A stretch of DNA of 64,000 nucleotides, from positions 489,639 through 553,638 of the forward strand of contig NZ_BJKN01000001.1 in the NCBI RefSeq assembly GCF_006538365.1, given 5' to 3'. The notes under the pieces were generated by a model. The model was not told where the DNA came from. It searched no databases and saw only the letters and a list, made by a program, of their open reading frames with translations. Made by a program: the position numbers and the translations under genes. Of this stretch, positions 12,581 to 35,196 are shown in pieces. Position 1 is the stretch's first letter. Each line of letters opens with the position of its first letter. The DNA is from Moorella sp. E308F. Its GTDB lineage: Bacteria; Bacillota; DSM-521; Neomoorellales; Neomoorellaceae.

Positions 12581-12669
12581 CTCTGTCCTCACCTCTAAAA
12601 AATAGCCTGTCTAATCCCGGTATAAAGTCCGCACAGGTTCCCTCCAGGTGCAGTTTTTACCCCCATGTT

Positions 12670-14838
12670 TCAGTCTTGAGCGGCTGCAAGTATCTCGGCC
12701 GTATGCTTAACCTGTACAGTACTTCCCATCTGGTCCAGACCGCCGCGGAGCTGGAGGACGCATCCCGGGCAGTCCACCGCCACCAATTCCGCCCCGCTCG
12801 CCGCAATATTTTTTAGCTTGCGCGCCAGGATTGGCCTGCTGATTTCCGGGTATTTGATGCTGTAGGAGCCGCCAAAGCCGCAGCAGCGGTCGCTTTCCTG
12901 CATCTCAACCAGTTCTACCTCTGGCCGGCCTTTTAACACCTCCCGCGCCACCCGGTCCAGGCCCAGGTGCCGCTTGAAGTGGCAGGAATCGTGGTAGGTG
13001 ACTTTAAGGGCCCGCCCGCTTTCTTTAAGCGGCTGGCCGGAAGGTCCCTGGCGATCCCTGGTCAGTTCATGGACGAGTTCGGTAAAATCCTTGACCTTTG
13101 CAGCTAGAATCCGGGCCCGCGCTTCCCAGGCCGGGTCTCCGGCCAGGAGCTCGGGGAAGTCCTTTTTCAGGGCCACGGCGCAGGTGGGACAGGCGGTAAC
13201 GATAACCCCGGCACTGGCGCCTTCCAGGGCGGCGATATTCTGTTTAGCCAGTTTAACTGCCGTCTCCCGGTCGCCGGCGTAAGCTGCTGGGGCGCCGCAG
13301 CAGGCCTGCTCCTGGGGGAACACTACCTGCACCCCTTCCCGCCCCAGTACCTTATAAACGGCCTCACCGATCTCCGGGTAGACGAAGTCAATGACGCAGC
13401 CGCTGTAAAAGGCAGCTCGCAGGCGGGGCCGGCTCAAGGGCCGTTCCAGAACCTTCACCCGGTCACGCAGGGGCACCCGGGCAATGGCCGGCAGGCTGCG
13501 CCCTTCCGTGAGACTGCTGAAGAAGAGGGGCAGGTGCCGGATGAGGGGCCGGCCATGGGTCACCGGGCCCTGAAGACGAGCAGCGGTCCGCAGCAGGGTG
13601 TGCATGAGCTTCGGCCTAGCCACCACCCCGTGGAGGGCAATGCGGTACCCGCTGGAGAGGCCCTGCTTCGTGACGACCCGCTCCCGCAGCTTCAACACCA
13701 GATCGGGGATATTAATCTTTGCCGGGCAGACCTCGGCGCAACGCCGGCAGCCGATGCACAGGCTCTGGGGGTCGGCGGCGTCTTCCAGGGAATTAAAGAA
13801 GGCCGTCAGGATGCTGCCGATGCCACCGCTGTAAATATAGCCGTAGACCTGGCCGCTGACCAGCTGGAAGACAGGGCAGACGTTGGTGCAGGAGGCACAG
13901 CGGATGCACTGCAGGGCTTCCTTGAAGACCGGGTCGGCGGCCATCCGGGTACGGCCGTTGTCCAGGAGAACGACGTGCAGCTCCTTAATCCCCTCACCTT
14001 CGCCCTGCCAGGCCGGGACCGGACCGGTAATCATGGTCACATAGCTGGTAATGGGCTGGGCCGTACCGCTGCGGGGCAGGGCCTCAAGGATAGGAACGAT
14101 ATCTTTGAGCTCCGGCACCAGCTTCTCGTAGCCGACAATGGCCACGTGGACCGGCGGTACAGTCGTAGCCAGGCGGGCGTTGCCCTCATTGGTGCAGATG
14201 ACAATGGTCCCCGTTTCAGCCACAGCAATGTTGGCGCCGCTGATGCCCATGCCGGCGGTAAGAAACTTTTTCCTCAGCTCCCGGCGGGCGATGCGGACCA
14301 GGTTTTTAATATCCGGTTCCACCGGTTCACCCAGGTAACGGCTGAAGACCCGGGCCACCTCTTCTTTGGGCAGGTGAATGGCCGGCATGACCATGTGGGA
14401 AGGCCTTTCTCCCGGCATGAGCTGCAGTATCCACTCGGCCAGGTCGGTCTCATGGGGGTTGATGCCCCGCTCCTGAAGGAATTCGTTCAGGTGGATCTCT
14501 TCCGAAGCAAAGGACTTGGATTTGACGATATCGGTAACGCCGTGTTCTCTAGCCACCTGGTAGATATATTCCCTGGCGGCCGCGGCGTCCTTAGCGCGGA
14601 ATACCTTGCCGCCACGGGCCTCCACCGCCCGGGTGAACCGGTCGGCCAGTTCCTCGTAACGTCCGGCGGCATCGGCCTTGATAGCGGCAATCCTCTGCCT
14701 TAAGGATTCAAAATCCCGGCCGGCATAGACCTGTTCCCGGGAAACGATGTAAGAGTCGGCAAAACGCCCCAGCGCCCCGCGCAGGCTGGCATTGTTCAAG
14801 GCCTGACGTATACGCTCCCTGAATTCTTTACCGGCCAT
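12670..14838 (-). CDS. lutB: Lactate-utilisation iron-sulfur protein, LutB-LutA fusion
   Basis: 722 residues from an ATG six bases after GGAGGTG. It is much longer than ordinary LutB (about 470) because a second protein is fused on. Domains in order: LUD domain (about 60-290, with ITGPVPA); two 4Fe-4S motifs, CIRCASCTNVCP near 311 and CIGCRRCAEVCP near 360; then two cysteine-rich CCG repeats of the LutA/LldE type, SGCVIDF with QACCGAPAAY (476-510) and YHDSCHF with DRCCGFGGSY (about 620-655). It should oxidise lactate to pyruvate together with LutC at the membrane face. Its start overlaps the end of lutC by 11 bases. The FAD-free LUD mechanism is still poorly understood. Confidence 0.9.
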   Translation of the reverse strand: MAGKEFRERIRQALNNASLRGALGRFADSYIVSREQVYAGRDFESLRQRIAAIKADAAGRYEELADRFTRAVEARGGKVFRAKDAAAAREYIYQVAREHGVTDIVKSKSFASEEIHLNEFLQERGINPHETDLAEWILQLMPGERPSHMVMPAIHLPKEEVARVFSRYLGEPVEPDIKNLVRIARRELRKKFLTAGMGISGANIAVAETGTIVICTNEGNARLATTVPPVHVAIVGYEKLVPELKDIVPILEALPRSGTAQPITSYVTMITGPVPAWQGEGEGIKELHVVLLDNGRTRMAADPVFKEALQCIRCASCTNVCPVFQLVSGQVYGYIYSGGIGSILTAFFNSLEDAADPQSLCIGCRRCAEVCPAKINIPDLVLKLRERVVTKQGLSSGYRIALHGVVARPKLMHTLLRTAARLQGPVTHGRPLIRHLPLFFSSLTEGRSLPAIARVPLRDRVKVLERPLSRPRLRAAFYSGCVIDFVYPEIGEAVYKVLGREGVQVVFPQEQACCGAPAAYAGDRETAVKLAKQNIAALEGASAGVIVTACPTCAVALKKDFPELLAGDPAWEARARILAAKVKDFTELVHELTRDRQGPSGQPLKESGRALKVTYHDSCHFKRHLGLDRVAREVLKGRPEVELVEMQESDRCCGFGGSYSIKYPEISRPILARKLKNIAASGAELVAVDCPGCVLQLRGGLDQMGSTVQVKHTAEILAAAQD

Positions 14839-15391
14839 GGCGGCCACCTCCGTTATTCCTCACCAGGATAATCAGCAGCCTTTCCGGGCCGTGAACGCCA
14901 ATGGTCAGGCTGCGTTCAATGTCGGCCGTACGGCTGGGACCCGTGACCAGGGTGAAATACCCCGGCCAGTTCCCCCGCTCCAAATAGGCGTCGATTACCT
15001 CGGTCAAACCGGCCCGGATTCGCTCCGCCCGCAGCAAAGCCACGCAGGTCAGGGGCAGCATGGTCGCCAGGCGTGTTTTCAGGTCAGTGGCGTCCATGGC
15101 CAGGGTTCCCGTCTCGGCAATGCCATAATCAAACTCAACAATACCAGTATCGGCCTGGCGGGCAAAATCGGCGCCTTCCTTCTCAATGCCGAAGCCGGCT
15201 GCTGCCAGGGCCGCCTCCAGCCCCGCTTCCCTGCACATAGAAGACTCTACCAGGGCTACCCTGTTCCCAAAGGGCTGTAAAGCCTCGACCAATTTCGGCC
15301 CGATCCCCCCCGCGCCTTCCACGGGTATGACCTGCGCCCCCATGACCTCAGCCTGGCGGGTAAAGAAAGCAATTAAATCATCTTGGTTCAA
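14828..15391 (-). CDS. lutC: Lactate-utilisation protein C (LUD domain)
   Basis: 187 residues, a small stand-alone LUD domain. Typical features are GIVEFDYGIAETGTLAMD (about 95-112) and ALLRAERIRAGLTEVID, followed by FTLVTGPSRTADIERSLTIGVHGPERLLIILV near the C-terminus. It is the third component of the LutABC lactate oxidase. Its last 11 bases overlap the LutB-LutA fusion gene, which fits translational coupling. It begins 31 bases after the preceding iron-sulfur gene in the same operon. Confidence 0.92.
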   Translation of the reverse strand: MNQDDLIAFFTRQAEVMGAQVIPVEGAGGIGPKLVEALQPFGNRVALVESSMCREAGLEAALAAAGFGIEKEGADFARQADTGIVEFDYGIAETGTLAMDATDLKTRLATMLPLTCVALLRAERIRAGLTEVIDAYLERGNWPGYFTLVTGPSRTADIERSLTIGVHGPERLLIILVRNNGGGRHGR

Positions 15392-15421
15392 GAATAAACC
15401 CTCCCCGTGATTAGATATTCT

Positions 15422-16717
15422 TTATCCCACCTCTCGCCTCTCACTTCTCACTTCACTCCTGGCATAGGCCTGCTTCAGGAGCTGGACGACGTGGAGGACC
15501 CGCGGCGAAAACCCCGCCTGGGCCAGGCCGTCTTCCAGCTGCATACGGCAGGCCGGGCAGCCGGTAACCACCGTATCAGCCCCGGTGGCCTTAATGGCCG
15601 CCACCTTGTGGGCCTGGACCTGCATGGATATGTTGTAGTTGGTCAGGCTGAAGGAACCGGCGCCGCCGCAGCAGCGGCCGGCATTTTTCATTTCCTGGAA
15701 CTCCAGGCCGGGAATGGAGCGCAAAACCTGCCGCGGTTCATTGCTAATACCCTGGCCGCGCACCAGGTGACAGGGATCATGGTAGGTCACCTTGAGGGGC
15801 AGGCCGGCGGCCGGCCGGCGGTAATCAATCTCCAGCAGCAGTTCGTTGATATCCCGGGCCCTGGCGGCCGTGACCCGGGCCGCCGCTCCCTGGAAGCTGT
15901 TCGCAAGAAGCTGCGGGTAAAAATGCTTCCAGGCCTCGCCGCAGGTGGCGCAGGCCACCACCAGGTAGTCAAAGTTATAACGCTGGAAAATCTGCAGGTT
16001 GGAAGCGGCCATTTCCCTGACCGTCGGGACGTCGCCGTGTACCAGGACCGGGATACCACAGCAGTGCTGGTCCCGGGGGATTATAACCTCGATATCATTG
16101 ACCAGCAGGACGTTGACCACCGCCCGGCCGATGTCGGTATAGATATAATTTTCCAGGCAACCGGTGAAAAAGGCCGCCCGGGCCCGGGGTTTTACCGGGC
16201 GGATTACCTCGGGGAACTCTTCTTTCAGAGTCCTTTTAGCCAGGGGCGGCAGTACCCGCCGCAGTTCCAGCCCGATGGGGAAGCGGGGGTGACAGCGCTG
16301 GATTTCCGGCCGGTAACGCAGGGCCAGGGGCTGGAGACGGCGGCCGGTTTTGAGGGCCGTGTCAAAGAGCCAAGGACGCTTCAAGCCCTGGAAGATTATT
16401 TTTTTTACCCAGGGCAGGCCCTTTTCCCGCACCATGGCCGCCCGGGCAGCCAGGACTACCGTATCGACCCGGACACCACTGGGGCAGTTGGCGACGCAGG
16501 CCATGCAGGTGAGACAAAAAAGCAGCTTTTCCGCCAGGATGTTGGTGGCCGGGATCTCGCCCTTCAGGTAGGCATAGGCCAGCTGGATCTTACCCCGGGC
16601 TACCGCCGTTTCCTCCAGGGTTTCTTTATATAGCGGGCAGACCGCCTGGCAGTTGCCGCACTTCATGCATCTAGCCATTTCCTCTTCTACCAGAGCTAAA
16701 TCATCGAAAAGACTCAC
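15422..16717 (-). CDS. Iron-sulfur CCG-domain oxidoreductase subunit (GlcF/GlpC type)
   Basis: 431 residues from a GTG nine bases after AAAGGAG; the frame opens 20 codons earlier at another GTG with no ribosome site. Two 4Fe-4S motifs (CMKCGNCQAVCPLY near 19, CLTCMACVANCP near 69) are followed by two CCG domains (QHCCGIPVLVHGD and GRCCGGAGSF near 349), the layout of GlcF and GlpC. These subunits normally pass electrons from an FAD enzyme (GlcD or LldD-like) to quinones or another acceptor. No GlcD gene is adjacent. The last residues are encoded by a CT-rich minisatellite (ARSEVRSERREVG), so the C-terminus may have been extended by repeat insertion. Confidence 0.85.
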   Translation of the reverse strand: MSLFDDLALVEEEMARCMKCGNCQAVCPLYKETLEETAVARGKIQLAYAYLKGEIPATNILAEKLLFCLTCMACVANCPSGVRVDTVVLAARAAMVREKGLPWVKKIIFQGLKRPWLFDTALKTGRRLQPLALRYRPEIQRCHPRFPIGLELRRVLPPLAKRTLKEEFPEVIRPVKPRARAAFFTGCLENYIYTDIGRAVVNVLLVNDIEVIIPRDQHCCGIPVLVHGDVPTVREMAASNLQIFQRYNFDYLVVACATCGEAWKHFYPQLLANSFQGAAARVTAARARDINELLLEIDYRRPAAGLPLKVTYHDPCHLVRGQGISNEPRQVLRSIPGLEFQEMKNAGRCCGGAGSFSLTNYNISMQVQAHKVAAIKATGADTVVTGCPACRMQLEDGLAQAGFSPRVLHVVQLLKQAYARSEVRSERREVG

Positions 16718-16842
16718 GGCAGTTCGCTCCTTTGCCGGCAAGGGGCCTACCAGCTTTCCCTGAATTAACGCCTCCACAGAGGCACGGCCTGCTTGCGCCG
16801 CCGGATAACCGCTTCAATGATCAGACAATTTTGTCCGGCCTG

Positions 16843-16855
16843 ACCACCTGGTGGT
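16843..16855. promoter_or_regulatory. Candidate LutR/LldR operator
   Basis: ACCACC-T-GGTGGT, a perfect inverted repeat with the TGGT/ACCA halves favoured by FadR-family regulators. It begins four bases downstream of the -10 element and covers the expected transcription start, so binding would block RNA polymerase. The presumed regulator is encoded at 11879-12580. Confidence 0.6.
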
Positions 16856-16858
16856 TCT

Positions 16859-16886
16859 ATTATAACATTTTTTTACGGCAATTCAA
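16859..16886 (-). promoter_or_regulatory. Sigma-A promoter of the lactate operon
   Basis: On the minus strand, TTGAAT, a 16-base spacer and TATAAT lie about 140 bases before the GTG start of the iron-sulfur gene. The operator palindrome follows directly. Confidence 0.65.
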
Positions 16887-16948
16887 TAATTATTTCGCAG
16901 AATAGCCCCCGCTATTTCACGAGGACTTAATGGACTGCAGCGCTCATT

Positions 16949-16975
16949 AAAAAAGCCCCGGCCGGCGGGGCTTTT
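16949..16975 (-). terminator. Terminator after the lactate permease gene
   Basis: AAAAGCCCCGCC-GGCCGGGGCTTTTTT on the minus strand, 15 bases after the permease stop. Strong stem and T-run. Confidence 0.88.
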
Positions 16976-16990
16976 ATCATCTCCTACAGC

Positions 16991-18766
16991 CTATTTGCCC
17001 GGCGTATAAACTTCCCGCCGACCGGCACGGCGGTTGCTGGCAGTAACAATAACCGCTAAGATGGCAATAACGATCAGTGTTCCGGCAAGGATCCATAACC
17101 CGTCGGACAGGCTGACCATGGCGGTGTTAACAACCGGCTGAGCCAGGTCGCCGTGGGCCGGGATCATCCATGTAAAGAAATAGGCCTGAAGGGTTGTTAT
17201 GACGCTGATAAAAACCGTCATCAAGATGCTGGGTACGATAGCGAAACGGAAGAGCTCACCCTCCTGACCCACCTGACCGGTAGCCGCCGTGGCAACAGCG
17301 ATGCTCTGAGGGGAGATCATTTTTCCAGTGACACCGCCGGAGGAGTTGGCAGCTACCGTCAGCACCGGATCGACGCCGATATTTTGGGCGGTAATATACT
17401 GCAATTTACCGAAAAGGGCATTGGCGGACGTATCGCTACCCGTAATGAAGACACCCAGCCAACCCAGAAAGGGTGCTACAAAAGGAAAAGCCTTGCCGGT
17501 AACTGTCAGGGCCTGTCCCAGAGTGGTACTCATCCCGGAATAGTTTGCTGTATAAGCAAAGCCCAGAACTAAAAATATCGTAAGGACAGCATAGCGCAGA
17601 TCATGTAAAGTCTCGCCGAAGAGGCGCAGCCAGTCGCTAAAGCGCATATCTAGAATCAGCATCGATATGAAAGCAGCAATCAGGATCCCTGTACCCGGGG
17701 CAGCAAGCCAGTTAAAGGTAAAGATAGCGTTCATGGGTTCGGAAGTACCGACCTTGATAATGGCCTGATGCAGGCCAGGTATGGCGAATTTGATAGTAAC
17801 CAGATCTAGTACAGCCTTTACCGGACCGATACCCCAGTCAGCTACCATCAACGTGAGGATGATAAAAGGCGTCCACGCCTTCAGAATAGTGCCGGGCGCA
17901 TGGTGGGATCGGGGCCCCTTTGAGGCAGTCTCGTTGGGGAAACGCCAGATATGTCCGGGTTGCCAGACGCGCAGAAACAATATCAGGCAGATTAGAGAAA
18001 AGAGAGCGGAGATAATATCGGGCAGCATGGGACTTAAATAGTTGGAGGAAAACCACTGACTGACGGCAAAAGAACCGCCGCTTACAAGACAAGCCGGCCA
18101 CGTCTCTTTGACACCTTTCCAGCCCGACATGATTGCCACCAGCCAGAAAGGCAACAGGACAGAGAGGAAAGGCAACTGGCGGCCGATCATTTTGCTAAGG
18201 AGCATGGAATCAATCCCTGCCACCTGGCCGAGGGTGAGCACAGGAACGCCAATAGCACCGAAGGCCACCGGCGCCGTGTTGGCCAGCAGGCAAATACTGG
18301 CGGCATAAACGGGGTTGAAGCCCAGGCCTGCCAGCATAGCGGCGGTAATGGCCACCGGAGCGCCAAAACCAGCCGAACCTTCAAGGAAAGCACCAAAGGA
18401 AAAAGCAATCAGCAATGCCTGCAGGCGCCGGTCTTCAGTAATACCGGCAATAGAATCCTTGATAATTTCAAACTGCCCCGTTTTTACAGTTATCTGGTAC
18501 AAAAAGACGGCGGCAACTACAATCCAGCCAATGGGAAACAGACCGTACAGTCCACCGTTAACAAAAGAAAGAATGGCCAGGTCGGCCGGCATGCGGTAGC
18601 CGAAAACAGCGACAGCAATAGCCGCCACCACCGTCAGAAAAGCGGCAATATGTCCTTTCATTTTTCGAACGGCCAGGGCATAAAAAAGGAAAATAATGGG
18701 GATAGCAGCCAGCAAGGCTGATACGGCAAGATTGTTGGCCGGATCATAGACTTGGGTCCAGGGCAT
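16991..18766 (-). CDS. lctP: L-lactate permease
   Basis: 591 residues, a multi-spanning membrane protein of the lactate permease family (LctP/LldP/GlcA; proton-coupled import of lactate or glycolate). Family marks are the N-terminal WTQVYDPANNLAVSALLAAIPII, the central GSAGFGAPVAITAAMLAGLGF and GSDTSANALFGKLQ in the C-terminal half. It has its own terminator and is separated by the promoter and operator region from the lactate oxidation genes that follow. Thus uptake and oxidation are two transcripts, probably under the same regulator. Confidence 0.95.
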   Translation of the reverse strand: MPWTQVYDPANNLAVSALLAAIPIIFLFYALAVRKMKGHIAAFLTVVAAIAVAVFGYRMPADLAILSFVNGGLYGLFPIGWIVVAAVFLYQITVKTGQFEIIKDSIAGITEDRRLQALLIAFSFGAFLEGSAGFGAPVAITAAMLAGLGFNPVYAASICLLANTAPVAFGAIGVPVLTLGQVAGIDSMLLSKMIGRQLPFLSVLLPFWLVAIMSGWKGVKETWPACLVSGGSFAVSQWFSSNYLSPMLPDIISALFSLICLILFLRVWQPGHIWRFPNETASKGPRSHHAPGTILKAWTPFIILTLMVADWGIGPVKAVLDLVTIKFAIPGLHQAIIKVGTSEPMNAIFTFNWLAAPGTGILIAAFISMLILDMRFSDWLRLFGETLHDLRYAVLTIFLVLGFAYTANYSGMSTTLGQALTVTGKAFPFVAPFLGWLGVFITGSDTSANALFGKLQYITAQNIGVDPVLTVAANSSGGVTGKMISPQSIAVATAATGQVGQEGELFRFAIVPSILMTVFISVITTLQAYFFTWMIPAHGDLAQPVVNTAMVSLSDGLWILAGTLIVIAILAVIVTASNRRAGRREVYTPGK

Positions 18767-22130: not shown

Positions 22131-23300
22131 TCAACCGGCCACAATGGCGCCGGCGACAGCCGCCAGGCCGGCCGTCCGGGGTGAAGCCAGGTAAATCTCC
22201 GCCTCGGGAGAGCCCATGCGCCCGGGAGTGTTGCGGACCGTAGCTGCCAGCACCCGGTCACCCGGCGCCAGCAAGCCGGCATGCTGCCCCGGACAGGGGC
22301 CACAACCGGGAGGCAAAATTACGGCCCCCTGCTGTCGTAAGCTCCAACTCAAGCCCCGGGCTTCCATTTCCTGCAAAACAGCCCTGGATGCCGGTACTAA
22401 CAGCAGGTTTACGTCCCCGTGAACAGGTCTGCCGTTCATAGCAGCGGCCAGTTCTTCAAAATCCTCCAGGCGACCGCTCCCGCAACCCCCTACCATAACC
22501 TGGGTTAAGGGTAAGCCAGCGACCTTCTGTACCGGCTGGACGTTATTCGGTGCTGGAGGACAGGCAACAAGGGGCTTCAGGGTAGAAGCATCAATAGTTA
22601 AATCGCTGTCAGCAACCTGTTCCTCTGGTGGGATAATCATTCCTGTCATACAGCCCATTTCGCCGATCAGGTTACAAACGCTCATCCGTCCACTTGGCGA
22701 AAGCTTCCAGACACCCTCTCCCTGCAGCAGCAGGGCTTTATTTTTTAAGACGCCTCCTCCCAAGCGTCGCAGGAGTTCCAATCCCAGATCCCGCGGGGAT
22801 ACCCCTGGTGGCAAGCCGCCCTTTATTGTTACTATTACTGTTTCTGGCACCACTAATGGAAGTTGTCCGGTAAGCAGTACCGGTACCAGTTCGGCAGGGG
22901 CAAGAGAAAACGCTATGACACCAAAGGCGCCGGCCGTTGTTACATGACCATCGGCACCGGCAATAATCATGCCGGCCCGGGGATGGAAGTATTCAGCCAC
23001 CACCTGGTGGAGAACCCCCTCACACCTTTCAAAAAGGTTAATTCCCTGCCGGCGAGCGTAAGCCCTTAACTGCAAATGCAGCTGCCGGCTCGCTATCGTC
23101 GGCGCCGGCATAGCATGATCGAGAGTGAAAACCACTTTTGCCGGTTGCGCGACTTGTTCCCCTTCAGGCCAGGCAGCCAGGATTTTGGCGGCAGTTCCAT
23201 CATGAGCAAGAATTAAATCAACGTTGATGGTTATCTCTTCGCCCGGTACTACTCGCTGTATCCCGGCGGCAGCTCCCAGGGCTTTAAGGAAAAAGTTCAT
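22131..23300 (-). CDS. Aconitase/isopropylmalate-dehydratase family large-subunit-like protein
   Basis: 389 residues from an ATG that aligns with the usual LeuC start; the frame is open 17 codons further to a GTG with no ribosome site. The fold is that of the aconitase large subunit. It has PGEEITINVD, DHAMPAPT, a GADGHVTTAGAFG block (GADSHT in LeuC), GEMGCMTGMI, GGCGSGRLEDFEE and PGCGPCPGQHAG. The last two supply the three cysteines of a 4Fe-4S cluster. It should dehydrate or isomerise a hydroxy-di- or tricarboxylate. No small (swivel) subunit gene is adjacent. It lies 180 bases after the GntP permease gene, so the permease may import its substrate. Confidence 0.8.
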   Translation of the reverse strand: MNFFLKALGAAAGIQRVVPGEEITINVDLILAHDGTAAKILAAWPEGEQVAQPAKVVFTLDHAMPAPTIASRQLHLQLRAYARRQGINLFERCEGVLHQVVAEYFHPRAGMIIAGADGHVTTAGAFGVIAFSLAPAELVPVLLTGQLPLVVPETVIVTIKGGLPPGVSPRDLGLELLRRLGGGVLKNKALLLQGEGVWKLSPSGRMSVCNLIGEMGCMTGMIIPPEEQVADSDLTIDASTLKPLVACPPAPNNVQPVQKVAGLPLTQVMVGGCGSGRLEDFEELAAAMNGRPVHGDVNLLLVPASRAVLQEMEARGLSWSLRQQGAVILPPGCGPCPGQHAGLLAPGDRVLAATVRNTPGRMGSPEAEIYLASPRTAGLAAVAGAIVAG

Positions 23301-23468
23301 ACCTGAAGACTTCCCTTCTAAAAATTTAGCCTTCAGTTTTATCTTTTGCACTATAATCGCCTATACAACCACTCGAACATACCCGGGTACATGGTAAAAA
23401 CGTCTGATGCCTGTAAAATCTATCTCGCCCAATGCAGTATCGGTTAGCCTTTTTTCTGCTTTTAGCTC

Positions 23469-23521
23469 ACCTGGCCCGGATTGGGCGCCTGCAAGCAACT
23501 TCCATCCGGGCCAGGTTTTTG
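23469..23521 (+). terminator. Strong hairpin with T-run on the plus strand
   Basis: ACCTGGCCCGGAT pairs perfectly (13 bp) with ATCCGGGCCAGGT across a 22-base loop, followed by TTTTTG on the plus strand. On the minus strand, where the flanking genes lie, it starts ten bases after the GntP stop but has no T-run. It may act as an mRNA 3'-end stabiliser or a partial terminator there. Confidence 0.55.
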
Positions 23522-23530
23522 TTTACATAA

Positions 23531-24877
23531 TTAAATAAGATGCATAAGCCACATGACATAGACGGCAATCATGGAGAAGATACCACCAACCAGCGTAACA
23601 CCGCCGTAGGAAATCAAGGCAGATTTAAGTTCCATCTTGGAGAGAGAAGTGCACACCCAGAAATAACTGGAATTAACATATTTGATAATTACCGAACCGG
23701 CGGCCCCGGCCAGCATGGCAGCTTCCGGGCTTAAATTAAGAGTTCCCAGCATGGGAGCTACCAGAGAACCTGCGGTAATGACGCCTACAGTCGTCGAACC
23801 GGTTATCATGTTGCCAATTACGCCTAAAACAAAGGGCAGGAAAATGGCCGGAACCCCCGTCTGGGCCACGGACTTGGCAATCAGATCTACCGCCGGTGTT
23901 CCCTTTAAAATTGCACTCAAGGACCCACCCAGGCCAGTTACAACAATGATCATAGCAGAAGTCCGCAGGGCATTTTCAATCCACTCACTGTTTTGTTTCT
24001 TTTTCTGCTCTCCCTTGGTATTGCGGTAGGCCAGCCAAACACCAATGGATAAGGCCACAACCGGCCAGCCTAAATAGGTAAGGGCAAGCCTCAAAAGGCT
24101 TTCTTTAGGAAGGGCAAAAGAAGCTACACTCTGCCCGGCAATCAAAATTAAGGGGATGAGGATAGGTGCATATGCTGCCGCCGTGGTGGGCAGTTCGGAT
24201 TCCATCCCTTTTTCGGCAAATGATTGACCCAGAAACTCTTCTGAAGGTGGTGAAGGCACCCGTGGCCCCACTATTTGTGCATAAACCCAGCCCGCCAGGG
24301 AGCCTACAAGGCAGGCAATGCTACCAAAAACAATAATTTTACCCACATCGGCTTTCACCAGGGCCGCGGCCGCCAGCGGTCCCGGTGTAGGCGGCACCAT
24401 GGCATGGGTAAGCTGCATGGCTCCCACCAGTCCCGTAGCCATTACACTCATATTGGTGCCTACTTTAATAGCTGCCGAATGCACTAATGGGTTCAGAATA
24501 ACGTAACCGATGTCGGAAAAAATGGCAATACCGATAACGAAGCCGGTCAAGGTTAGGGCCAGCGGCATCCTTTTTTCGCCGATCCATTTAATCATAGTTA
24601 AGGTGATTTTTTCAATACCACCCGTATTTTTTAAGGCCTCGGCAATAATAGAGCCAAGGACTATAACAACCGCAATAGATTGGACTGTTTTACCAAAACC
24701 GGTTTCAAAGGCTTTAATAAACTTATCCATATCCAGGCCAGGCACAAGACCCATTAGGACGATGGGAATTAAAAGCGCCAGGAAAACATGCCATTTGAAC
24801 CTTCCAATAAACAAAAATAACAAAGCAATAACTGCCACAAAAGCCGATAAAGCCACAACTGCGTTTTGGATAATCAT
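23531..24877 (-). CDS. GntP-family permease
   Basis: 448 residues with some 12 hydrophobic segments. It belongs to the gluconate:proton symporter family (GntP), which also moves other sugar acids and hydroxy acids such as glycerate, 2-keto acids and tartrate-like compounds. Family features are LIFGRFKWHVFLALL-type N-terminal helices, the PPTPGPLAAAALVKAD loop after residue 150, and GSTTVGVITAGSLVAPML near residue 355. The ATG follows AGGGGGGAACC. Position between an oxoacid oxidoreductase and an aconitase-like gene suggests import of an organic acid that both then process. Confidence 0.9.
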   Translation of the reverse strand: MIIQNAVVALSAFVAVIALLFLFIGRFKWHVFLALLIPIVLMGLVPGLDMDKFIKAFETGFGKTVQSIAVVIVLGSIIAEALKNTGGIEKITLTMIKWIGEKRMPLALTLTGFVIGIAIFSDIGYVILNPLVHSAAIKVGTNMSVMATGLVGAMQLTHAMVPPTPGPLAAAALVKADVGKIIVFGSIACLVGSLAGWVYAQIVGPRVPSPPSEEFLGQSFAEKGMESELPTTAAAYAPILIPLILIAGQSVASFALPKESLLRLALTYLGWPVVALSIGVWLAYRNTKGEQKKKQNSEWIENALRTSAMIIVVTGLGGSLSAILKGTPAVDLIAKSVAQTGVPAIFLPFVLGVIGNMITGSTTVGVITAGSLVAPMLGTLNLSPEAAMLAGAAGSVIIKYVNSSYFWVCTSLSKMELKSALISYGGVTLVGGIFSMIAVYVMWLMHLI

Positions 24878-25032: not shown

Positions 25033-25467
25033 TTAATTGTGATGCTGGAGCATGCCCAACTTACTTAATTCCGCTAAAATCATTTCTTCTTTTTTATCTA
25101 TACTTGCGTCCGAATCAAGGGATAGCAACTGCCAATTTACCCTCTGATTACTTCTTTTTACCGCTGGATCGACGTTAATGGCTATAACTATCCCCCCAGC
25201 TTTCAATCCCCGGGTTACATCCATAATACCCAGCAGGCTGTTATCCAGGAGCACCACGACATCCGGACGGCTGGCATTGGCCGAGCGTTCCCGGATAAAA
25301 CTATCAGCAATACGCACCACCGTATACATAGGCGCCCCCGGCCGGTAAGCGGCAAAGTTTTCAAAGACCTGGACATATTTACCTGCCGCCAGGGCGGCTT
25401 GAGCTACTTTACCGGCCAGGGCGGCCACCGGCTGGCCGTAACGGCCGTGGAAGCGGATTTCGATCAT
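25033..25467 (-). CDS. 2-oxoacid:ferredoxin oxidoreductase, gamma subunit
   Basis: 144 residues with the gamma-subunit core: IRFHGRYGQPVAALAGKVAQAAL at the N-terminus, YVQVFENFAAYRPGAP and DVVVLLDNSLL. This subunit helps bind CoA in pyruvate synthase-type enzymes. It is shorter than the usual 180-190 residues; the sequence stops soon after the equivalent of residue 140, so the C-terminal part is reduced. Its ATG overlaps the stop of the beta-subunit gene by four bases. Which 2-oxoacid is used cannot be told from the sequence. Confidence 0.88.
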   Translation of the reverse strand: MIEIRFHGRYGQPVAALAGKVAQAALAAGKYVQVFENFAAYRPGAPMYTVVRIADSFIRERSANASRPDVVVLLDNSLLGIMDVTRGLKAGGIVIAINVDPAVKRSNQRVNWQLLSLDSDASIDKKEEMILAELSKLGMLQHHN

Positions 25468-26336
25468 GACTGCACCTCCTGGAAGCGGCGGTCAGCCTCG
25501 GCCTGAAGGGCCTCGACGGCCGCTTCATCCATGTTCTTAAAGCGCCCCTGAAGCCGCAGGTACTCCCGCACCGGTATACGGCGTTCCGGGACGACTGTTA
25601 ACCGCCGCCGGCCGCCTATCTCTTCATAAAGCTGCCACAGGCCGCACTCTACTGCCAGACGGGCGAGCTGCACCGTCTGGTCCTCCCGAATACCCCAGCC
25701 TCTAAAGCAAGGGGCCAGGATGTGGATATAGCGGAAGCCCTGAATGGCCCTGGCCTTCTGGAATTTCCGGATCAGGTCCAGGGGATAGGCGACTGAAGCC
25801 GTAGCCAGATAGGCCGGGTGGTGGGCGGCCATGATGGCCAGCATGTCTTTGCGCGGCGTAGGCTTGCCGGCGGGCGTGTCAGGCGTGACCGCCTGGTAAG
25901 GGGTAACGCTGCCGGCCTGGCCGCCGGTATTCATATAAGTTTCATTATCATAGCAGACGTGGATGATATTCTCCTGGCGTTCCGCCGCTCCGGTCAGCGA
26001 CTGGAAGCCTATGTCGGCCGTTCCGGCGTCACCGGCCCAGGAAACGACATTGACATCTATAATCCCCTGGATGTCCAGGGCCGCCCGGATACCGGAGGCG
26101 ACGGCCGGAGCGCATTCAAAAAGGGAATGGTAAAAGGGTATCTCCCAGGCGGTACTTAAGCCCGAACCGCCGATGGTGGCCATACAGGAAGCAGGAATGG
26201 TAACAATGGTCCGCGGACCCAGGGCCTTCATGGCCTGGCGCACCGCCAGGGCCGCCCCACACCCGCGGCAACCGCCGTGGCCCCCGGTAAAAAGCTCGTC
26301 TTGCGGTATTTCGGCCAATGTCTTGTATACTTCCAT
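25464..26336 (-). CDS. 2-oxoacid:ferredoxin oxidoreductase, beta (thiamine diphosphate) subunit
   Basis: 290 residues. The TPP-binding half shows GGHGGCRGCGAALAVRQ near residue 18, VTIPASCMATIGG, then the Mg-TPP motif WAGDAGTADIGFQ and YDNETYMNTGGQAG. The CxxC in GCRGCG, with further cysteines at ASC and APCFRG, fits the 4Fe-4S ligands of the beta subunit. With the alpha subunit it decarboxylates a 2-oxoacid to acyl-CoA and reduces ferredoxin, or runs in reverse for carboxylation. Gene order delta-alpha-beta-gamma matches four-subunit enzymes. Confidence 0.92.
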   Translation of the reverse strand: MEVYKTLAEIPQDELFTGGHGGCRGCGAALAVRQAMKALGPRTIVTIPASCMATIGGSGLSTAWEIPFYHSLFECAPAVASGIRAALDIQGIIDVNVVSWAGDAGTADIGFQSLTGAAERQENIIHVCYDNETYMNTGGQAGSVTPYQAVTPDTPAGKPTPRKDMLAIMAAHHPAYLATASVAYPLDLIRKFQKARAIQGFRYIHILAPCFRGWGIREDQTVQLARLAVECGLWQLYEEIGGRRRLTVVPERRIPVREYLRLQGRFKNMDEAAVEALQAEADRRFQEVQS

Positions 26337-26354: not shown

Positions 26355-27521
26355 TTACAGCCCATGCCATTGATAGAGCGCCGGAATCTTTCCGGCGGCA
26401 AGTCCTTCGTTTACCTGCCGGTAAATGGTGATTAAATCTTCAACACCTACATCCCGTCCGCCGAGGCCGAGGATATAACTGTAAACCGGTACCTTCGTAA
26501 ATCCGTAGAGAACGGCCCGCAGTTCCCGGCCCAGGGCGCCCCCGGCGCCGTAAACGATATTTTTATCCAGGGCGACTACGGCCCGGGTATGATGCATCAT
26601 TTCTCGCACCGTATCCGCCGGGAAGGGCCGGAAAAGGCGGATTTTCAGCAGCCCCACCTTTTCTCCTGCGGCCCGCAGAGCGTCGACGGCAATCCTGGCC
26701 GTGCTGACCAGGGAGCCCATAGCCACCAGTACGATTTCCGCATCCTCCAGGCGGTAGCCCGATACGGCACCGCCCCAGTCGCGGCCCGTTAGTTTGGCAT
26801 AATTCGCGCTAACCTCCTGCAAGACTTCGCCCGCCCGCTGCAGGGCGGCATCCTGATGGTATTTGTAGTCCATATATAGTTCCGGGCCAGTAACGGTATT
26901 GACCGCCAGGGGGTTATTTACATCCAGGACCGGCCGCCGCACCAGGGGCAGGAAGGTATCTACTGCTTCCTGCTCCGGCAGGTCTACGGTTTCCCGGGTA
27001 TGGGATTGGATGTAACCCTCATAGTTGACCATTACCGGCAGGCGCACCCGCTCGTCTTCACCCAGGCGAAAAGCCTGGATGAGGCTGTCCAGGACTTCCT
27101 GGTTGTTCTCGCAGAAAAGCTGGATCCACCCGCATGCCTCCTGAGCCACAACATCGCCGTGCTCCGGGAAGCGGCTGTGGGGGGCCGCCAGGGCCCGGTT
27201 GACTACAGCCATGACCACCGGCTGGCGGAGGCCGGAAGTATGGTAGAGGACCTCGCTCATATAGGCCAGGCCCTGGGAATTGGTAATGAGAAACGATCTG
27301 GCTCCGGCCATGGCCGCCCCCAGGGCCGCGGCCATGGCGCTGTGGTCGGACTCCACCCGGACAAAATTACATTTGAGGTTGCCGTCGGCTATAAACTGCG
27401 TAATCTTTTCCATGACCGGCGCCGCCGGGGTAATAGGGTAGGAAGCCAGGACTTCTACCCGCGCCAGGCGGGCGGCATGGGCGGCCGCTTCGTTGCCGTT
27501 TAATAACAGGTGCATTTTCAT
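26355..27521 (-). CDS. 2-oxoacid:ferredoxin oxidoreductase, alpha subunit
   Basis: 388 residues. YPITPAAPVMEKI near residue 28, VESDHSAMAAALGAAMAGARSF, and SQGLAYMSEVLYHTSGLRQPVV define the pyrimidine-binding half of the TPP site. IRLFRPFPADTVREMM near 305 marks domain II. Most similar in layout to pyruvate and branched-chain oxoacid enzymes; the sequence does not decide between them. It lies 11 bases after the delta-subunit gene and 18 before the beta-subunit gene. Confidence 0.92.
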   Translation of the reverse strand: MKMHLLLNGNEAAAHAARLARVEVLASYPITPAAPVMEKITQFIADGNLKCNFVRVESDHSAMAAALGAAMAGARSFLITNSQGLAYMSEVLYHTSGLRQPVVMAVVNRALAAPHSRFPEHGDVVAQEACGWIQLFCENNQEVLDSLIQAFRLGEDERVRLPVMVNYEGYIQSHTRETVDLPEQEAVDTFLPLVRRPVLDVNNPLAVNTVTGPELYMDYKYHQDAALQRAGEVLQEVSANYAKLTGRDWGGAVSGYRLEDAEIVLVAMGSLVSTARIAVDALRAAGEKVGLLKIRLFRPFPADTVREMMHHTRAVVALDKNIVYGAGGALGRELRAVLYGFTKVPVYSYILGLGGRDVGVEDLITIYRQVNEGLAAGKIPALYQWHGL

Positions 27522-27532
27522 TCACTCCCTGC

Positions 27533-27826
27533 TTACTTCTCAATAAACCCCCGGTTGCCGGCATGTTCCGGAACCATGGTGATAGCCCGGGCGGGGCACT
27601 CGACGGCGCAGATGCCGCATCCTTTGCAAAAACGCAAATCCACTCTCACTTCCCCTTTATCTGTCGCCAGGGCTGCGTCCGGGCAATACAGCAGGCACTC
27701 GCGGCAGAGATTACATTTTTGTTTATCAATCACCGGCCGCCGCTCGCGGATACGCTCCATGGCCGCCCCCGCGGCCATGGTACCCGGCCTGGCCGATGGT
27801 ACTACCGGTAGCTCTTTAGCCGCCAC
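27533..27826 (-). CDS. 2-oxoacid:ferredoxin oxidoreductase, delta subunit (2x 4Fe-4S ferredoxin)
   Basis: 97 residues with two ferredoxin motifs, CNLCRECLLYCPD and CKGCGICAVECPA. It is the electron-exit subunit that hands electrons from the TPP subunit to soluble ferredoxin. It is the first gene of the operon, 45 bases downstream of a -24/-12 promoter. The N-terminal 30 residues (basic, Pro/Ala-rich) precede the ferredoxin fold, and the family often has such an extension. Confidence 0.92.
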   Translation of the reverse strand: MAAKELPVVPSARPGTMAAGAAMERIRERRPVIDKQKCNLCRECLLYCPDAALATDKGEVRVDLRFCKGCGICAVECPARAITMVPEHAGNRGFIEK

Positions 27827-28050: not shown

Positions 28051-28278
28051 AGCGGTTAAAAACAGAAATATTTCCTTGACAACATTTTGCTTTTTATAGC
28101 AGCCATTTTTTTCCTGGTTTAACGAGTTTCTTTTAAATATAGAACTAAAAACGAAAATTTTGCAACCCGGCAAGGAAAAACCATCTTAACGTCGAATAGT
28201 AACATCAAAATCTGTCATGTTTCTTTTTTGTAACGGCCTATCGCCGTTTCCGGATTGAAACTCAGGGGGAACGGTTTC

Positions 28279-30213
28279 GTGGCAGAAATTGCTTTTATTG
28301 CTCCCTACGAAGACCTGGCCCACATCGCCCGCCAGGTGAGCCTGGAGCTGGGCCTGGATCTATCCATCCACGTTGCCAGGATGGAAGAAGGGGCAAACCT
28401 GGCCCGCGATCTGGCTAGAAACGGTTGCCAGGTCATTGTCAGCCGCGGCGTAACAGCCTGGCTCATCCAGCAGGCCGTGGACCTCCCGGTGGTCGACGTT
28501 CCCATTGGCGGTTACGATATCCTGCGAGCCTATTACCAGGCCAAACAATTCGGCGGCCCCATCGGCATCGCTGATGTCCCCGATGTCATCCAGGGCCTGG
28601 AGAGCCTGGAAACCATCCTGGGAGATACTTTTCTCAAATACACTCTAAAAAACCAGGATGATGACATCCGGCGGGGCATTCTGGCCCTCAAGGAAGCCGG
28701 TGCCGAAGTAATCATCGGCAAAATTGCCATGGCCCGCGAGGCGCGCAATTTCGGCCTAAACAGCGTCATCATTACCTCCGGCAAGGAAACGGTCTACCAG
28801 GCCCTCAAGGAGGCCCAGCGGGTGTTACAGGTCCGCCACCAGGAGAAACGCCGGGCCGAACAACTCAAGGCCATCCTGGACTTTGCCTATGACGGCATTA
28901 TCGCCCTGGATGAAGAAGGCCGCATAACCGTCTTCAACCCCGTGGCGGAAAAACTCTCCGGCTGGCGCGCCGGGGATGCTATCGGCCGCCCGGTAACGGA
29001 GGTCATCCCCAATGCCCAGTGCCATATCTTGTTAAAGACAGGAAAGCCGGAACTTGGTGAGCTGCTGGACATCGGCAATACCAGGGTGGTGGCCAACCGC
29101 GTACCCATCATTGTCGACGGCCGCACCGTAGGAGTGGTAACTACTTTCCAGAATATTTCCAGCCTGCAAAGCCTGGAGCACAAGGTCCGGCGCCGCCTGG
29201 CCGGGCGCGGCCACGTGGCCAAGTATACCTTTGCCGACATCCTTGGCGAAAGCCCGGCCTTGAAGGAAGCCGTGCGTCTGGCCCGGGAGTACGCCTCCGT
29301 CCAGTCCACGGTCCTCATTCATGGTGAGACAGGTTCAGGCAAGGAAATGTTCGCCCATGCCATCCACCTGGCCGGCCCCCGGCAGGACGGTCCCTTTGTA
29401 GCCGTCAACTGCGCCGCCCTGCCGGAAAACCTCCTGGAAAGCGAGCTTTTCGGCTACGCCGAGGGGGCCTTTACCGGCGCCCGCAAAGGCGGCAAACCCG
29501 GCCTTTTCGAACTCGCCCACGAGGGGACCATCTTCCTGGATGAAATCGGGGAAATGTCGCCCCGCCTCCAGGCCCGGGTACTGCGGGTCCTGGAAGAAGG
29601 GGAGATCATGCGCCTGGGGGATGACCGCATCATCCCCGTCAACGTAAGGGTTATTGCGGCCACCCACCGCAATCTCGCGCAGATGGTCAAGGAGCAGGCC
29701 TTCCGGGAAGACCTTTACTACCGCATCAACGTCCTTAACCTGGAAATCCCGCCTTTGCGGGAGCGCGGGGCTGATGTGCTCCTCCTGGCCGAACATTTCC
29801 TCCAGGAGTTCTGCCGCCAGTTGCAGCGGCCGGCAGGGAACCTCACGCCGGAGGCAGCCAGGGAGTTGCTCCAGTACCAGTGGCCGGGCAACATCCGGGA
29901 GCTGCGCAACTGCATGGAACGCCTGGCCTTACGCTGCCATGGGACCACCATCAGCGCTGCTGAGGTTCGCCAGGCTCTGGGGTTGGTAACAGCGCCGGAG
30001 CCCGGGAACCCCGGAGAAGGTGCACCAGGAGAAGGACGGATAGAAAGACTGGCCGGCCAGGTAAACATCCTGGAACGCGGCCTGATCATGCGCGTTCTGG
30101 CCGAAACGGGGGGCAACAAGGCCGAAGCCGCCCGCCGCTTAGGCGTCAGCCGCACCACCCTGTGGCGGAAGTTAAAAGAGGAAAATAAGATAGACAAAGC
30201 TGGTAAAGCATAG
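28279..30213 (+). CDS. Sigma-54-dependent transcriptional activator with PrpR-like sensor and PAS domain
   Basis: 644 residues from a GTG eight bases after AGGGGGA; an in-frame TTG at 28255 has no site. The N-terminal 180 residues are a PrpR_N-type ligand domain (SRGVTAWLIQQ, VDVPIGGYDIL). A PAS domain (about 200-300, GIIALDEEGRITVFNP) comes next, then an AAA+ domain with Walker A GETGSGKE (about 348), the sigma-54-contacting GAFTGA (about 394) and Walker B TIFLDEIGEM (about 418), and a Fis-type helix-turn-helix (NKAEAARRLGVSRTTLWRKL) at the end. PrpR itself senses 2-methylcitrate. This protein very probably activates the divergent oxidoreductase operon. Confidence 0.94.
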   Translation: MAEIAFIAPYEDLAHIARQVSLELGLDLSIHVARMEEGANLARDLARNGCQVIVSRGVTAWLIQQAVDLPVVDVPIGGYDILRAYYQAKQFGGPIGIADVPDVIQGLESLETILGDTFLKYTLKNQDDDIRRGILALKEAGAEVIIGKIAMAREARNFGLNSVIITSGKETVYQALKEAQRVLQVRHQEKRRAEQLKAILDFAYDGIIALDEEGRITVFNPVAEKLSGWRAGDAIGRPVTEVIPNAQCHILLKTGKPELGELLDIGNTRVVANRVPIIVDGRTVGVVTTFQNISSLQSLEHKVRRRLAGRGHVAKYTFADILGESPALKEAVRLAREYASVQSTVLIHGETGSGKEMFAHAIHLAGPRQDGPFVAVNCAALPENLLESELFGYAEGAFTGARKGGKPGLFELAHEGTIFLDEIGEMSPRLQARVLRVLEEGEIMRLGDDRIIPVNVRVIAATHRNLAQMVKEQAFREDLYYRINVLNLEIPPLRERGADVLLLAEHFLQEFCRQLQRPAGNLTPEAARELLQYQWPGNIRELRNCMERLALRCHGTTISAAEVRQALGLVTAPEPGNPGEGAPGEGRIERLAGQVNILERGLIMRVLAETGGNKAEAARRLGVSRTTLWRKLKEENKIDKAGKA

Positions 30214-30492: not shown

Positions 30493-33189
30493 TCAACTCG
30501 CCGGTTCCAACCGTACCGCGGTCACCTTGTATTCCGCCGTCTTGGCGATGGGGTCAAAGGCGGCGTTGGTCAAGATGTTCACCGGGGACTCTTTGTAGTG
30601 GTAGGTCATGAACATTATCCCCGGCGGTACCCGGTCCGTCACTTTAACCTTCGTCACCAGTCGGCCGCGGCGGGAGACTACTGTTACCCTGTCCCCCGTC
30701 CGGACACCCAGCTCGGCCGCCTGGGCGGGGTTTATTTCCGCGTATTCTTCCGGCCGGTAGCTTTCCAGGGACGGCGAATGGCGGGTGGTGATGCCGTAGT
30801 GGTACAGCATGCGGCCGGTAGTCAGCAAAATGGGATATTCCTCGTCCGTCAGCTCGGCCGGAGGCTGATACTCAATACCCTGGAGCAAGCCCTTGCCCCG
30901 CGGGAACCTGCCGGCATGGAGGAATTTAGTCCCCGGGTGTTCCGGCGTTGGGCAGGGCCACTGCAGGCCGTTACCCTCCAGGCGGGCGTAGCTCATACCG
31001 GCATAGCTGGGGGTGAGGCTGGCCATCTCGGCGAAGATCTGCTCCGGGGAGTCGTAGTGCATTGGGTAGCCCAGGCGCGTTGCCAGATCGCAAATAATCT
31101 GCCAGTCGGGCCGGGATTCTCCCCTGGGCCTCAAGGCCCGGCGCACCCTTTGCACCCGGCGCTCGGTATTGGTGAAGGTGCCGTCCTTCTCCAGGAAACT
31201 GGCGCCGGGCAGGATGACGTCGGCAAACTTCGCCGTCTCGGAGATAAAGAGATCCTGCACTACCAGGAAGTCCAGGTTGGCCAGGGCTTTGCGCACGTGG
31301 GTGATATCCGGATCCGTCAGGGCCGGGTCTTCGCCCATGATGTACATGGCCCTGATATAGCCCTCCGTCGCCAGGTCGATCATCTCCGGGATGCGAAGGC
31401 CCGGGGTGGCGTCCAGCCGGCAGTTCCAGGCGGCAGCAAAGCGCTCTCGAACCTCCGGGTTGGCCACCTTCTGGTAACCGGGGAAGACGTCGGGCAGGGC
31501 ACCCATGTCACAGGCCCCCTGGACGTTATTCTGGCCACGTAAGGGGTTGACGCCGCTGAACTCTTTGCCCACATGGCCGGTAATCATGGCCAGGTTGGCC
31601 AGGTTCATGACGTTGCTGGTACCGCTGGTATGCTCGGTGATGCCCAGGGTATAGAAGATCCCCGCCCTGTCAGTCGTGGCATAAAGCCGCGCCGCGGCGT
31701 AGATCTTCTCCGCCGGCACGCCGGTAATCCCCGCCACCCGCTCCGGCGGGTAGTTCTGGACTACAGCCCAGAGGTTTTCAAAACCTTCCGTCCGTTCCTC
31801 AATAAACTTTTTATCCACCAGGCCTTCCGTGATGATGACATACATCAGGCCGTTAATTAAAGCCACATTGGTCCCCGGCCTGATGGGCAGCCACAGGTGG
31901 GCGTGCTCCACCAGCTCAATCCGGCGCGGGTCAACAACGATGAGCTTTGCTCCCCGCCGGGCAGCCTGTTTCATCTTCTGGCCGATGACCGGGTGGGCTT
32001 CGGTGGTGTTAGAACCGATAATGAGCAGGACGTCGTTATGCTCGATTTCAGCGATGGAGTTCGTCATAGCGCCGCTACCGAATGCTATGGCCAGACCGGC
32101 CACGGTAGGGGCGTGTCAGGTCCGGGCGCAGTGATCGACGTTGTTGGTGCCGATCACCGCCCGCATGAACTTCTGCATCAGGTAGTTTTCTTCGTTGGTA
32201 CACCGGGCCGAACTTAAAGCGCCGATGGCCCGGCTGCCGTACTGCTCCTTGATCTCTTGCAAGCGCCGGGCGGTAAATTCCAGGGCCTCGTCCCAGGTAG
32301 CTTCCCGGAAGCGACCCTCGCCCCGCTCGCCCACGCGGATGAGGGGCCGGGTAATGCGGTCCGGGCTTTCAGCAAAGTCGACGCCGAAGCGGCCCTTGAC
32401 GCAGAGCCAGCCGCTGTTGACCAGGGGGTTGTCATAGCCGCGGACGCGCACCACATGGTCGTCCTTCACGCTGACCTCCAGGTTGCAGCCCACGCCGCAG
32501 AAGGTGCAGGTGGTCCGCACTTTCGTCAGCTCCCACTCGCGGCCCTGCCATAAACTCGCCTTCTCCGTCAGGGCCCCCACCGGGCAGACCTGGACACAGT
32601 TGCCGCAAAAGACGCATTCTTCCGATTCCCTTAAGGTCAGATCCATGGCCGGGGTTACCCTGGTGTTGAAACCGCGGTGGGCAAAGTCGATGACGTTGTT
32701 AACCTGGACTTCCGCGCAAACGCGGATGCACTTGCCGCACAGGATGCACTTGTTCATATCCCGCACGATGAAGGGGTTGTCATCCTCCAGGGGATAGTCG
32801 TGTTTTTCCCCGTGGAATTTGTCTCCCCTTACGCCGTAATAGTAGGCGTAATCCTGCAGGCTGCAGGCGCCGCTCTTGCTGCAGGTGAGGCAGTCCCGGG
32901 GATGGTTGGCCAGCAATAATTCCAACATCATTTTGCGGGCTTCAATTACAGCCGGCGAAGCCGTCTGCACCACCATGCCCTCGGCGACGGCGGTCACGCA
33001 TGAGGCCGGCAGGCCGCGCATACCCTCGATTTCCACCACACACAGGCGGCAGCCGCCCCAGGGCGTGAGCTTCGGGTCATGGCAGAGGGTAGGGATAAAG
33101 ATGCCGTTGTCCCGGGCGGCCTGCAAGACCGTTGTCCCGGCCGGTACGGTTATTCTCTTGCCATCTATGGTCAAGGTGACATCAGCCAT
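30493..33189 (-). CDS. fdhA: Selenocysteine-containing formate dehydrogenase, catalytic subunit
   Basis: 898 residues when the in-frame TGA at 32116-32118 is read as selenocysteine (residue 358, context CART-U-HAPTVAG). Conceptual translation without recoding splits it into 357 and about 536 residues. Domains in order: NuoG-like 2Fe-2S ([16 protein letters not shown]), His/Cys 4Fe-4S ([19 protein letters not shown]), two ferredoxin motifs ([27 protein letters not shown]), the 4Fe-4[10 protein letters not shown], then the bis-molybdopterin (Mo or W) catalytic domains and the C-terminal dinucleotide-binding domain ([14 protein letters not shown]). It reduces CO2 to formate, the entry of the Wood-Ljungdahl methyl branch. 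A SECIS hairpin follows the TGA. Confidence 0.96.
32077..32106 (-). promoter_or_regulatory. Bacterial SECIS element in fdhA mRNA
   Basis: Starting nine bases after the UGA, ACCG-UGGCC-GGUCU-GGCCA-(UAGCAUU)-CGGU folds into a five-bp upper stem, a GGUCU apical loop and a four-bp lower stem with a bulge on the 3' side. The GGUCU loop is the feature SelB recognises in the E. coli fdhF hairpin, and the distance from the UGA fits. Confidence 0.85.
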
Positions 33190-35122: not shown

Positions 35123-35196
35123 TTCGGTTTCACCCCCGCCTAAAATCGAAGTCTTTTTATCCAAGCTGTAGAAGCTCGCGACGTCACATCGTATAG

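Follow-up and report, generated by a model that had tools for sequence, protein, structure and literature searches.

A conserved aconitase-family large subunit with domains 1–3 only: a possible hydro-lyase of new build in operons of Moorella and some others of its phylum

A structural study (PMC8184944) gives the aconitase superfamily three architectures, with domain 4 present in each. The same source places Ser642, the catalytic base of mitochondrial aconitase, in domain 4 and has three cysteines hold the cluster; it describes the large subunits of isopropylmalate/citramalate isomerase and homoaconitase as functioning with a small subunit, and AcnX as carrying domain 4 either fused or as a separate subunit, with S70A, the AcnX counterpart of Ser642, almost inactive. 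The superfamily also includes dehydratases of other substrates, as stated in PMC8184944, PMC10040528 and PMC5144071. Among the open-licence papers listed, titles and abstract openings give no description of a member with domains 1–3 only, or of the gene and operon reported here. The closest described relative is DmdA, which by name and pathway we take to be the large subunit of 2,3-dimethylmalate dehydratase.

Here we compare these systems with an aconitase-family gene (the orphan) in a 64-kb stretch of DNA from a Moorella genome (the window). The assembly is 3.06 Mb and 99.98% complete, and the nearest named relatives of the window are Moorella sulfitireducens (89%, best segment) and Moorella stamsii (76%).

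A large subunit with a rebuilt motif set

The orphan and the genes around it are as follows.

22131..23300, minus strand: the orphan, an aconitase-family large subunit with domains 1–3 only (PF00330, motifs, start comparison)
23531..24877, minus strand: GntP-family permease, 448 aa (profile matches)
25033..25467, minus strand: short PorC-like gamma subunit of 144 aa (covers about positions 1–103 of 177-position profiles)
25464..26336, minus strand: PorB-like beta subunit (profile match and alignment)
26355..27521, minus strand: PorA-like alpha subunit (profile matches and alignment)
27533..27826, minus strand: PorD-like ferredoxin subunit, 97 aa, under the 100-aa floor of the initial ORF list (TIGR02179 above cut-off)
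28255..30213, plus strand: divergent PrpR_N-PAS-sigma-54 activator, the probable regulator of the operon (profile matches)
11879–18766, minus strand: lactate-type cluster of a GntR-like regulator, a 725-aa LldH-like protein, a LutC-like protein, a GlcF-like protein and a lactate permease (partly by eye)

The open reading frame of the orphan runs from a GTG at 23351 to 22131 on the minus strand (406 aa, the numbering used for residues here), and the conserved start is the ATG at 23300, giving 389 aa. Its sole Pfam match is PF00330 (E 2.1e-59). It matches 19 NCBIfam families, those of the LeuC, HacA and AcnA kinds included, and for each its score stays under the curated cut-off; the best is TIGR02086 at 340.6 bits against a cut-off of 410.15. 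Isopropylmalate/citramalate isomerase and homoaconitase large subunits of known structure (4NQY, 4KP1 and 4KP2; E 4.9e-69 to 3.9e-67) align with it in two stretches that span nearly the whole protein, and the cluster cysteines are identical where aligned. A structure prediction from a four-sequence alignment (the window, L039, L040 and L041) reached a mean pLDDT of 43.3 and was rejected.

Orthologues of at least 58% identity occur in 10 of the 22 genomes of the window's class, its own genome counted. A sample of 398 genomes from the same phylum yields 21 with a match whose E value is 1e-70 or lower; these divide into 11 core orphans, recognised by motif and tree, nine DmdA-like proteins and one sister protein, L087 of genome G389. 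A further search of one order (that of G393) found matches at 1e-100 in 17 of 73 genomes, all 17 with GADGH. The 28 core loci discussed below, all from this single phylum, comprise the 10 of the window's family, one from G187 and the 17 from the order of G393. The core orphans, all 28, group as a single clade with 100/100 support in a tree built from 53 proteins, and L087 joins them at 99/99; DmdA-like proteins, themselves not monophyletic, surround both in a clade of 38 (100/100). The orphan is also under purifying selection, with dN/dS of 0.10–0.23 against five relatives and a sixth pair saturated, and its clade sits in a stereotyped operon. A search for further L087-type proteins in 59 genomes from the class to which G389 belongs returned only L087 itself at E 1e-85. 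None of the 60 records from a plasmid search reached at least 60% identity, and viral contigs gave no relative with the single orphan protein and one partial relative, 37% identical, with the orphan alignment.

Three cysteines, C290, C350 and C353, occupy the cluster-cysteine positions of the family and are invariant in all 28 core orphans, which agrees with the initial annotation that the cluster cysteines are kept and, together with PF00330, places the protein among the large subunits of the superfamily. That annotation had also read GADGHV in place of the usual GADSHT, and this too holds across the clade: G135-H136-V137 is found in 28/28 members, against S-H-T in relatives. Two more motifs are changed, GSCTNGR to GGCGSGR and NRNF to VRNT. 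By position, S135 is replaced by Gly, T137 by Val and N372 by Val or Ile in every core orphan, T291, N292 and F375 are substituted in every one, and all 28 have G289 where 19 of 24 tabulated relatives (LeuC-like and DmdA-like) have Ser. Position 373 is Arg in 21 orphans and Lys in seven, against Arg in all 24 relatives, the sister apart. Altogether, 13 positions with at least 90% conservation among the 24 relatives are retained in fewer than 20% of orphans. The sister L087 has G135, V137 and G289 yet retains TN and NRNF, as if the motif changes had been made stepwise.

Alongside these changes, none of the 28 orphans varies at D78, H79, H115, D134, H136, N227, E231, N374, R378 or the three cysteines, and at least 22 of the 24 relatives have the same residues there. 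In aconitase numbering, assigned in part from alignment to 1ACO, the active-site residues that we take to be equivalent are Asp100, His101, His147, Asp165, His167, Asn258, Glu262 and Arg452, all of them invariant in 28/28, and the changed positions presumably correspond to Ser166 (Gly in all 28) and Asn446 (Val or Ile in all 28). These two, with the TN of GSCTN, are where the orphans differ from isopropylmalate isomerase and homoaconitase. Because the catalytic residues of domains 1–3 are invariant and the swaps are fixed throughout the clade, the active site looks re-tooled rather than decayed, as judged from the alignment. No candidate replacement for the domain-4 base was found in the orphan in this analysis.

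The nearest comparison is with the DmdA-like proteins, whose clusters we recognised by gene content. They are neighbours of the orphans in the clade of 38, 38–45% identical over their length, and share the short form without the insertion of LeuC. The differences lie in the motifs and in the company kept: DmdA-like proteins have GADSHT in 8/9 and Ser and Thr at the two positions in 9/9, where orphans have Gly and Val; they keep GSCTNGR and NRNF, both changed in orphans; and each of the nine DmdA-like loci comes with nicotinate-type genes and a neighbouring small subunit, whereas the orphan loci have neither. The DmdAB arrangement of an adjacent DmdB and a nicotinate-type cluster is accordingly absent. 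The same is true of aconitase X, which has domain 4: the orphan, with PF00330 alone, shows neither the AcnX catalytic family nor its PF01989 swivel. On its sequence we class the orphan as a variant of the aconitase superfamily that is separate from LeuC, DmdA and AcnX.

The search for a small subunit

The initial annotation had stated that the swivel domain is missing from the gene and its neighbourhood, and this is borne out. With DmdB, LeuD and an aconitase tail as tblastn queries (E up to 1e-3), no swivel was found at any of the 28 orphan loci, the entire 64 kb being covered for the window, or at the sister locus L087; the same search detected a small subunit in 9/9 DmdA-like loci. Flanks are short at L099 (3.1 kb) and L112 (6.3 kb), so the absences at these two loci carry little weight. 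None of the 28 loci encodes a recognisable domain 4 with its serine base, either fused or as a subunit.

We extended the survey to 23 whole genomes, namely those of the sister and of 22 of the 28 core orphans; G007, G429, G438, G439, G445 and G452 (58–86% complete) were set aside. The window's genome has three PF00330 genes (a 652-aa aconitase, LeuC and the orphan) and two PF00694 swivels, one fused in the 652-aa aconitase and the other, an intact LeuD, beside LeuC. When each large-subunit gene, taken once and from the PF00330 matches listed, is paired with all PF00694 matches, the orphan alone has no swivel within 4 kb in 22 of the 23 genomes, among the matches listed. In the remaining genome, G459, one more PF00330 gene is unpaired among the matches listed, 7 kb from a swivel.

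The initial annotation named as its own refutation a small-subunit gene elsewhere that always co-occurs and completes a known dehydratase, and the 23 genomes were searched for one. Among the matches listed, 20 of the 23 genomes have no unpaired PF00694 domain; the unpaired one of G459 is that lying 7 kb from the other large subunit, and those of G411 and G417 are N-terminally short leuD genes without leuC, flanked by leuB and a LeuA-like ORF (by eye). We rejected the latter two as spare small subunits, as they are shortened genes of leu operons. G459 apart, no intact dedicated PF00694 gene was seen in the 23 genomes. The loci L125 and L126 are ilv-leu-type operons (some names by eye) that have no leuC and an N-terminally short leuD. 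Twenty of the 23 genomes, the window's included, lack the AcnX-type swivel PF01989; it is present in G001, G017 and G459.

To look beyond known swivels, the 2,702 ORFs of at least 40 aa within 9 kb of the 28 orphan genes were clustered into families. The labelled families present at 16 or more loci are the orphan (28), PorA, PorB, PorC and PorD (25 each), PrpR (23), a GlcF type (20) and a GlcD type (17), and no other; equally common unlabelled families are antisense overlaps of labelled genes, judged by coordinates. Because no intact dedicated PF00694 small subunit was seen, G459 apart, PF01989 is absent in 20/23 genomes and no added ORF family appears, the sequence evidence favours a hydro-lyase of new build over one with a dedicated small subunit. 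Which of two possibilities applied, a borrowed subunit or a new build, had been left undecided by the initial annotation; the second is now favoured, with a borrowed LeuD as a rival weighed below.

An operon with a 2-oxoacid oxidoreductase

The constant partner of the orphan is PorDABC, with PorA, PorB, PorC and PorD present at 25/28 loci; the three loci without it (L099, L112 and L116) are all on short or cut contigs. The tie to a GntP permease proposed in the initial annotation holds in the window and does not generalise, as GntP occurs at 6/28 loci and another transporter class at 20/28: MatC-type at 15 (two cut by contig ends), TRAP at three, MFS at one and Nramp-type at one, with none seen at two. 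These five classes do not point to one particular acid, and PDB matches of TRAP binding proteins did not settle a ligand. In the window, the gap between GntP and the orphan contains a perfect 11-bp inverted repeat (23470–23515, minus strand) with no T run after it, noted by eye.

PorDABC has the alpha, beta, gamma and delta subunits of a 2-oxoacid:acceptor oxidoreductase, and the beta-subunit cysteines C23, C26, C51 and C210 are invariant in 25/25 aligned sequences. Its gamma subunit is short: PorC is about 140 aa across loci, with GRYGQP or GRFGQP in most members. Several cluster cysteines are absent from the PorD-like proteins of L082, L117, L119 and L109. A PrpR-type regulator is found at 23/28 loci and GlcD, at 500 bits or more, at 14/28; the contig end truncates the GlcD of L118 to a fragment, and that of L045 is a weaker match (201 bits). 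No GlcD match lies between 14 and 38 kb of the window; a GlcF-like protein and LctP belong to the lactate-type cluster at 11.9–18.8 kb, about 3–10 kb from the orphan. At L109 (G459), a methyltetrahydrofolate methyltransferase and an MtaA-like gene adjoin the orphan.

Co-occurrence of the two partners is tight. Taking operon-type PorB as matches of 383 bits or more (the next best is 272), 17 of the 73 genomes in the order of G393 have PorB, 17 have the orphan and 16 have both, that is, 16 of the 18 genomes with either (Fisher 5e-14, with related genomes treated as independent). Of the three genomes whose orphan locus lacks PorDABC, G438 and G450 carry PorABC on a different contig from the orphan, and the search for operon-type PorB came up empty in the third, G439 (78% complete). 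Nevertheless, each partner occurs alone. In G423 (L122, 5158–13316), the same regulator and PorDABC, with a short PorC, are joined by a more divergent MatC-like carrier (37%) and an acetate/propionate kinase, and tblastn detects neither the orphan nor GlcD/F across 19 kb. In G389 (L087, 1605–12300), PorDABC is absent over 19 kb, and the sister orphan has as neighbours PrpR, GntP, a BhcA-like aminotransferase and a GntG/threonine-aldolase-like enzyme. This operon also has MttB-like and other methyl-transfer genes. The two are therefore separable, and the orphan has the look of an enzyme at the entry to the pathway.

A proposed role and its rivals

The retained metal site, the missing partner and the catabolic-looking operon together hint at an undescribed build for the aconitase family, and the orphan family of Moorella and some other members of its phylum may represent one. 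We tentatively prefer the reading, drawn from sequence comparison, that the orphan acts on its own as a [4Fe-4S] hydro-lyase or isomerase, readying an imported short hydroxycarboxylate for oxidation and decarboxylation in a catabolic operon. Its line would have branched beside the DmdA-like large subunits, with loss of the small subunit and a remodelling of the active site. From these comparisons we infer cluster binding, catalysis, the class of substrate and the direction of the pathway. An operon under sigma-54 control would break down a short hydroxycarboxylate that the permease brings into the cell; the [4Fe-4S] cluster, as Lewis acid, would bind and polarize the hydroxy acid, and the retained Asp-His and Glu residues would deal with the leaving hydroxyl as in aconitase, so that the orphan would turn the hydroxy acid into a 2-hydroxy or 2-oxo acid. 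Oxidation would fall to a 2-hydroxyacid dehydrogenase (GlcD/GlcF where encoded), and PorDABC would decarboxylate the 2-oxo acid to an acyl product. The acetate/propionate kinase of G423 suggests that this product would be an acyl-CoA ending as acyl phosphate.

A bolder extension, which we hold to be rather unlikely, adds a fourth architecture to the superfamily, made up of domains 1–3 alone. Such a hydro-lyase or isomerase would take its base from the large subunit or the substrate and feed a 2-oxoacid oxidoreductase with a truncated gamma subunit. Its substrate would be a small acid for which the carboxylate-binding residues of the swivel are not needed, such as a 2- or 3-hydroxy acid entering lactate- or glycolate-type oxidation. 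As the accepted mechanism puts the base of aconitase in domain 4, a conserved clade with domains 1–3 makes the need for domain 4 directly testable. The operon may also represent an undescribed catabolic route in Moorella and one further order of its phylum.

Among the alternatives, we give most weight to the idea that the orphan borrows LeuD, the small subunit of isopropylmalate isomerase, which would make the holoenzyme a conventional dehydratase of two parts, one of them shared; even this we consider unlikely. A stand-alone swivel gene (frames of 121–288 aa) is recorded in 23/23 genomes, so LeuD would be available for sharing, as the intact copy in the window's genome illustrates, and the majority of the domain 1–3 active-site residues are retained. 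However, every DmdA-like locus carries its own small subunit next door, and the 13 family-conserved positions that are mostly or always altered in orphans, S135, T137, T291, N292, N372 and F375 among them, argue against a shared LeuD. It is distinctly less probable that the base comes from a small subunit of unrelated fold, which would be invisible to PF00694 and PF01989 and missed by profile and tblastn searches alike; the clustered ORFs within 9 kb hold no further labelled family at 16 or more of the 28 loci in which such a subunit might be sought, although a partner encoded at a greater distance would escape this clustering.

Two further readings take the orphan out of catalysis. It would be a non-catalytic or accessory [Fe-S] subunit of PorDABC, perhaps occupying the space left by the short gamma subunit, in a proposal that we regard as improbable. 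The constancy of PorDABC at the loci, the near-complete overlap of the two genes in one order and a PorC that matches only about the first 100 of 177 profile positions all speak for it, but G423 has PorDABC with the short PorC and no orphan, G389 has the sister orphan without PorDABC, and the invariant hydro-lyase residues would be needless for a scaffold. Given G423 and G389, we rejected an obligate POR subunit as the main reading. Nor does a regulator or pseudoenzyme, such as a ligand or iron sensor, seem at all probable: loss of the domain bearing the known base would be in keeping with one, whereas the orphan lies within catabolic operons and never varies in its cluster cysteines and acid residues, both of which speak against this reading.

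Two more features of the window lie beyond the divergent regulator.

30493–33189, minus strand: formate-dehydrogenase-like gene (by eye), interrupted by an in-frame TGA
33269–35164: NuoF-like gene, adjoining the formate-dehydrogenase-like gene

As the TGA is in frame and can be read as U, it probably encodes selenocysteine.
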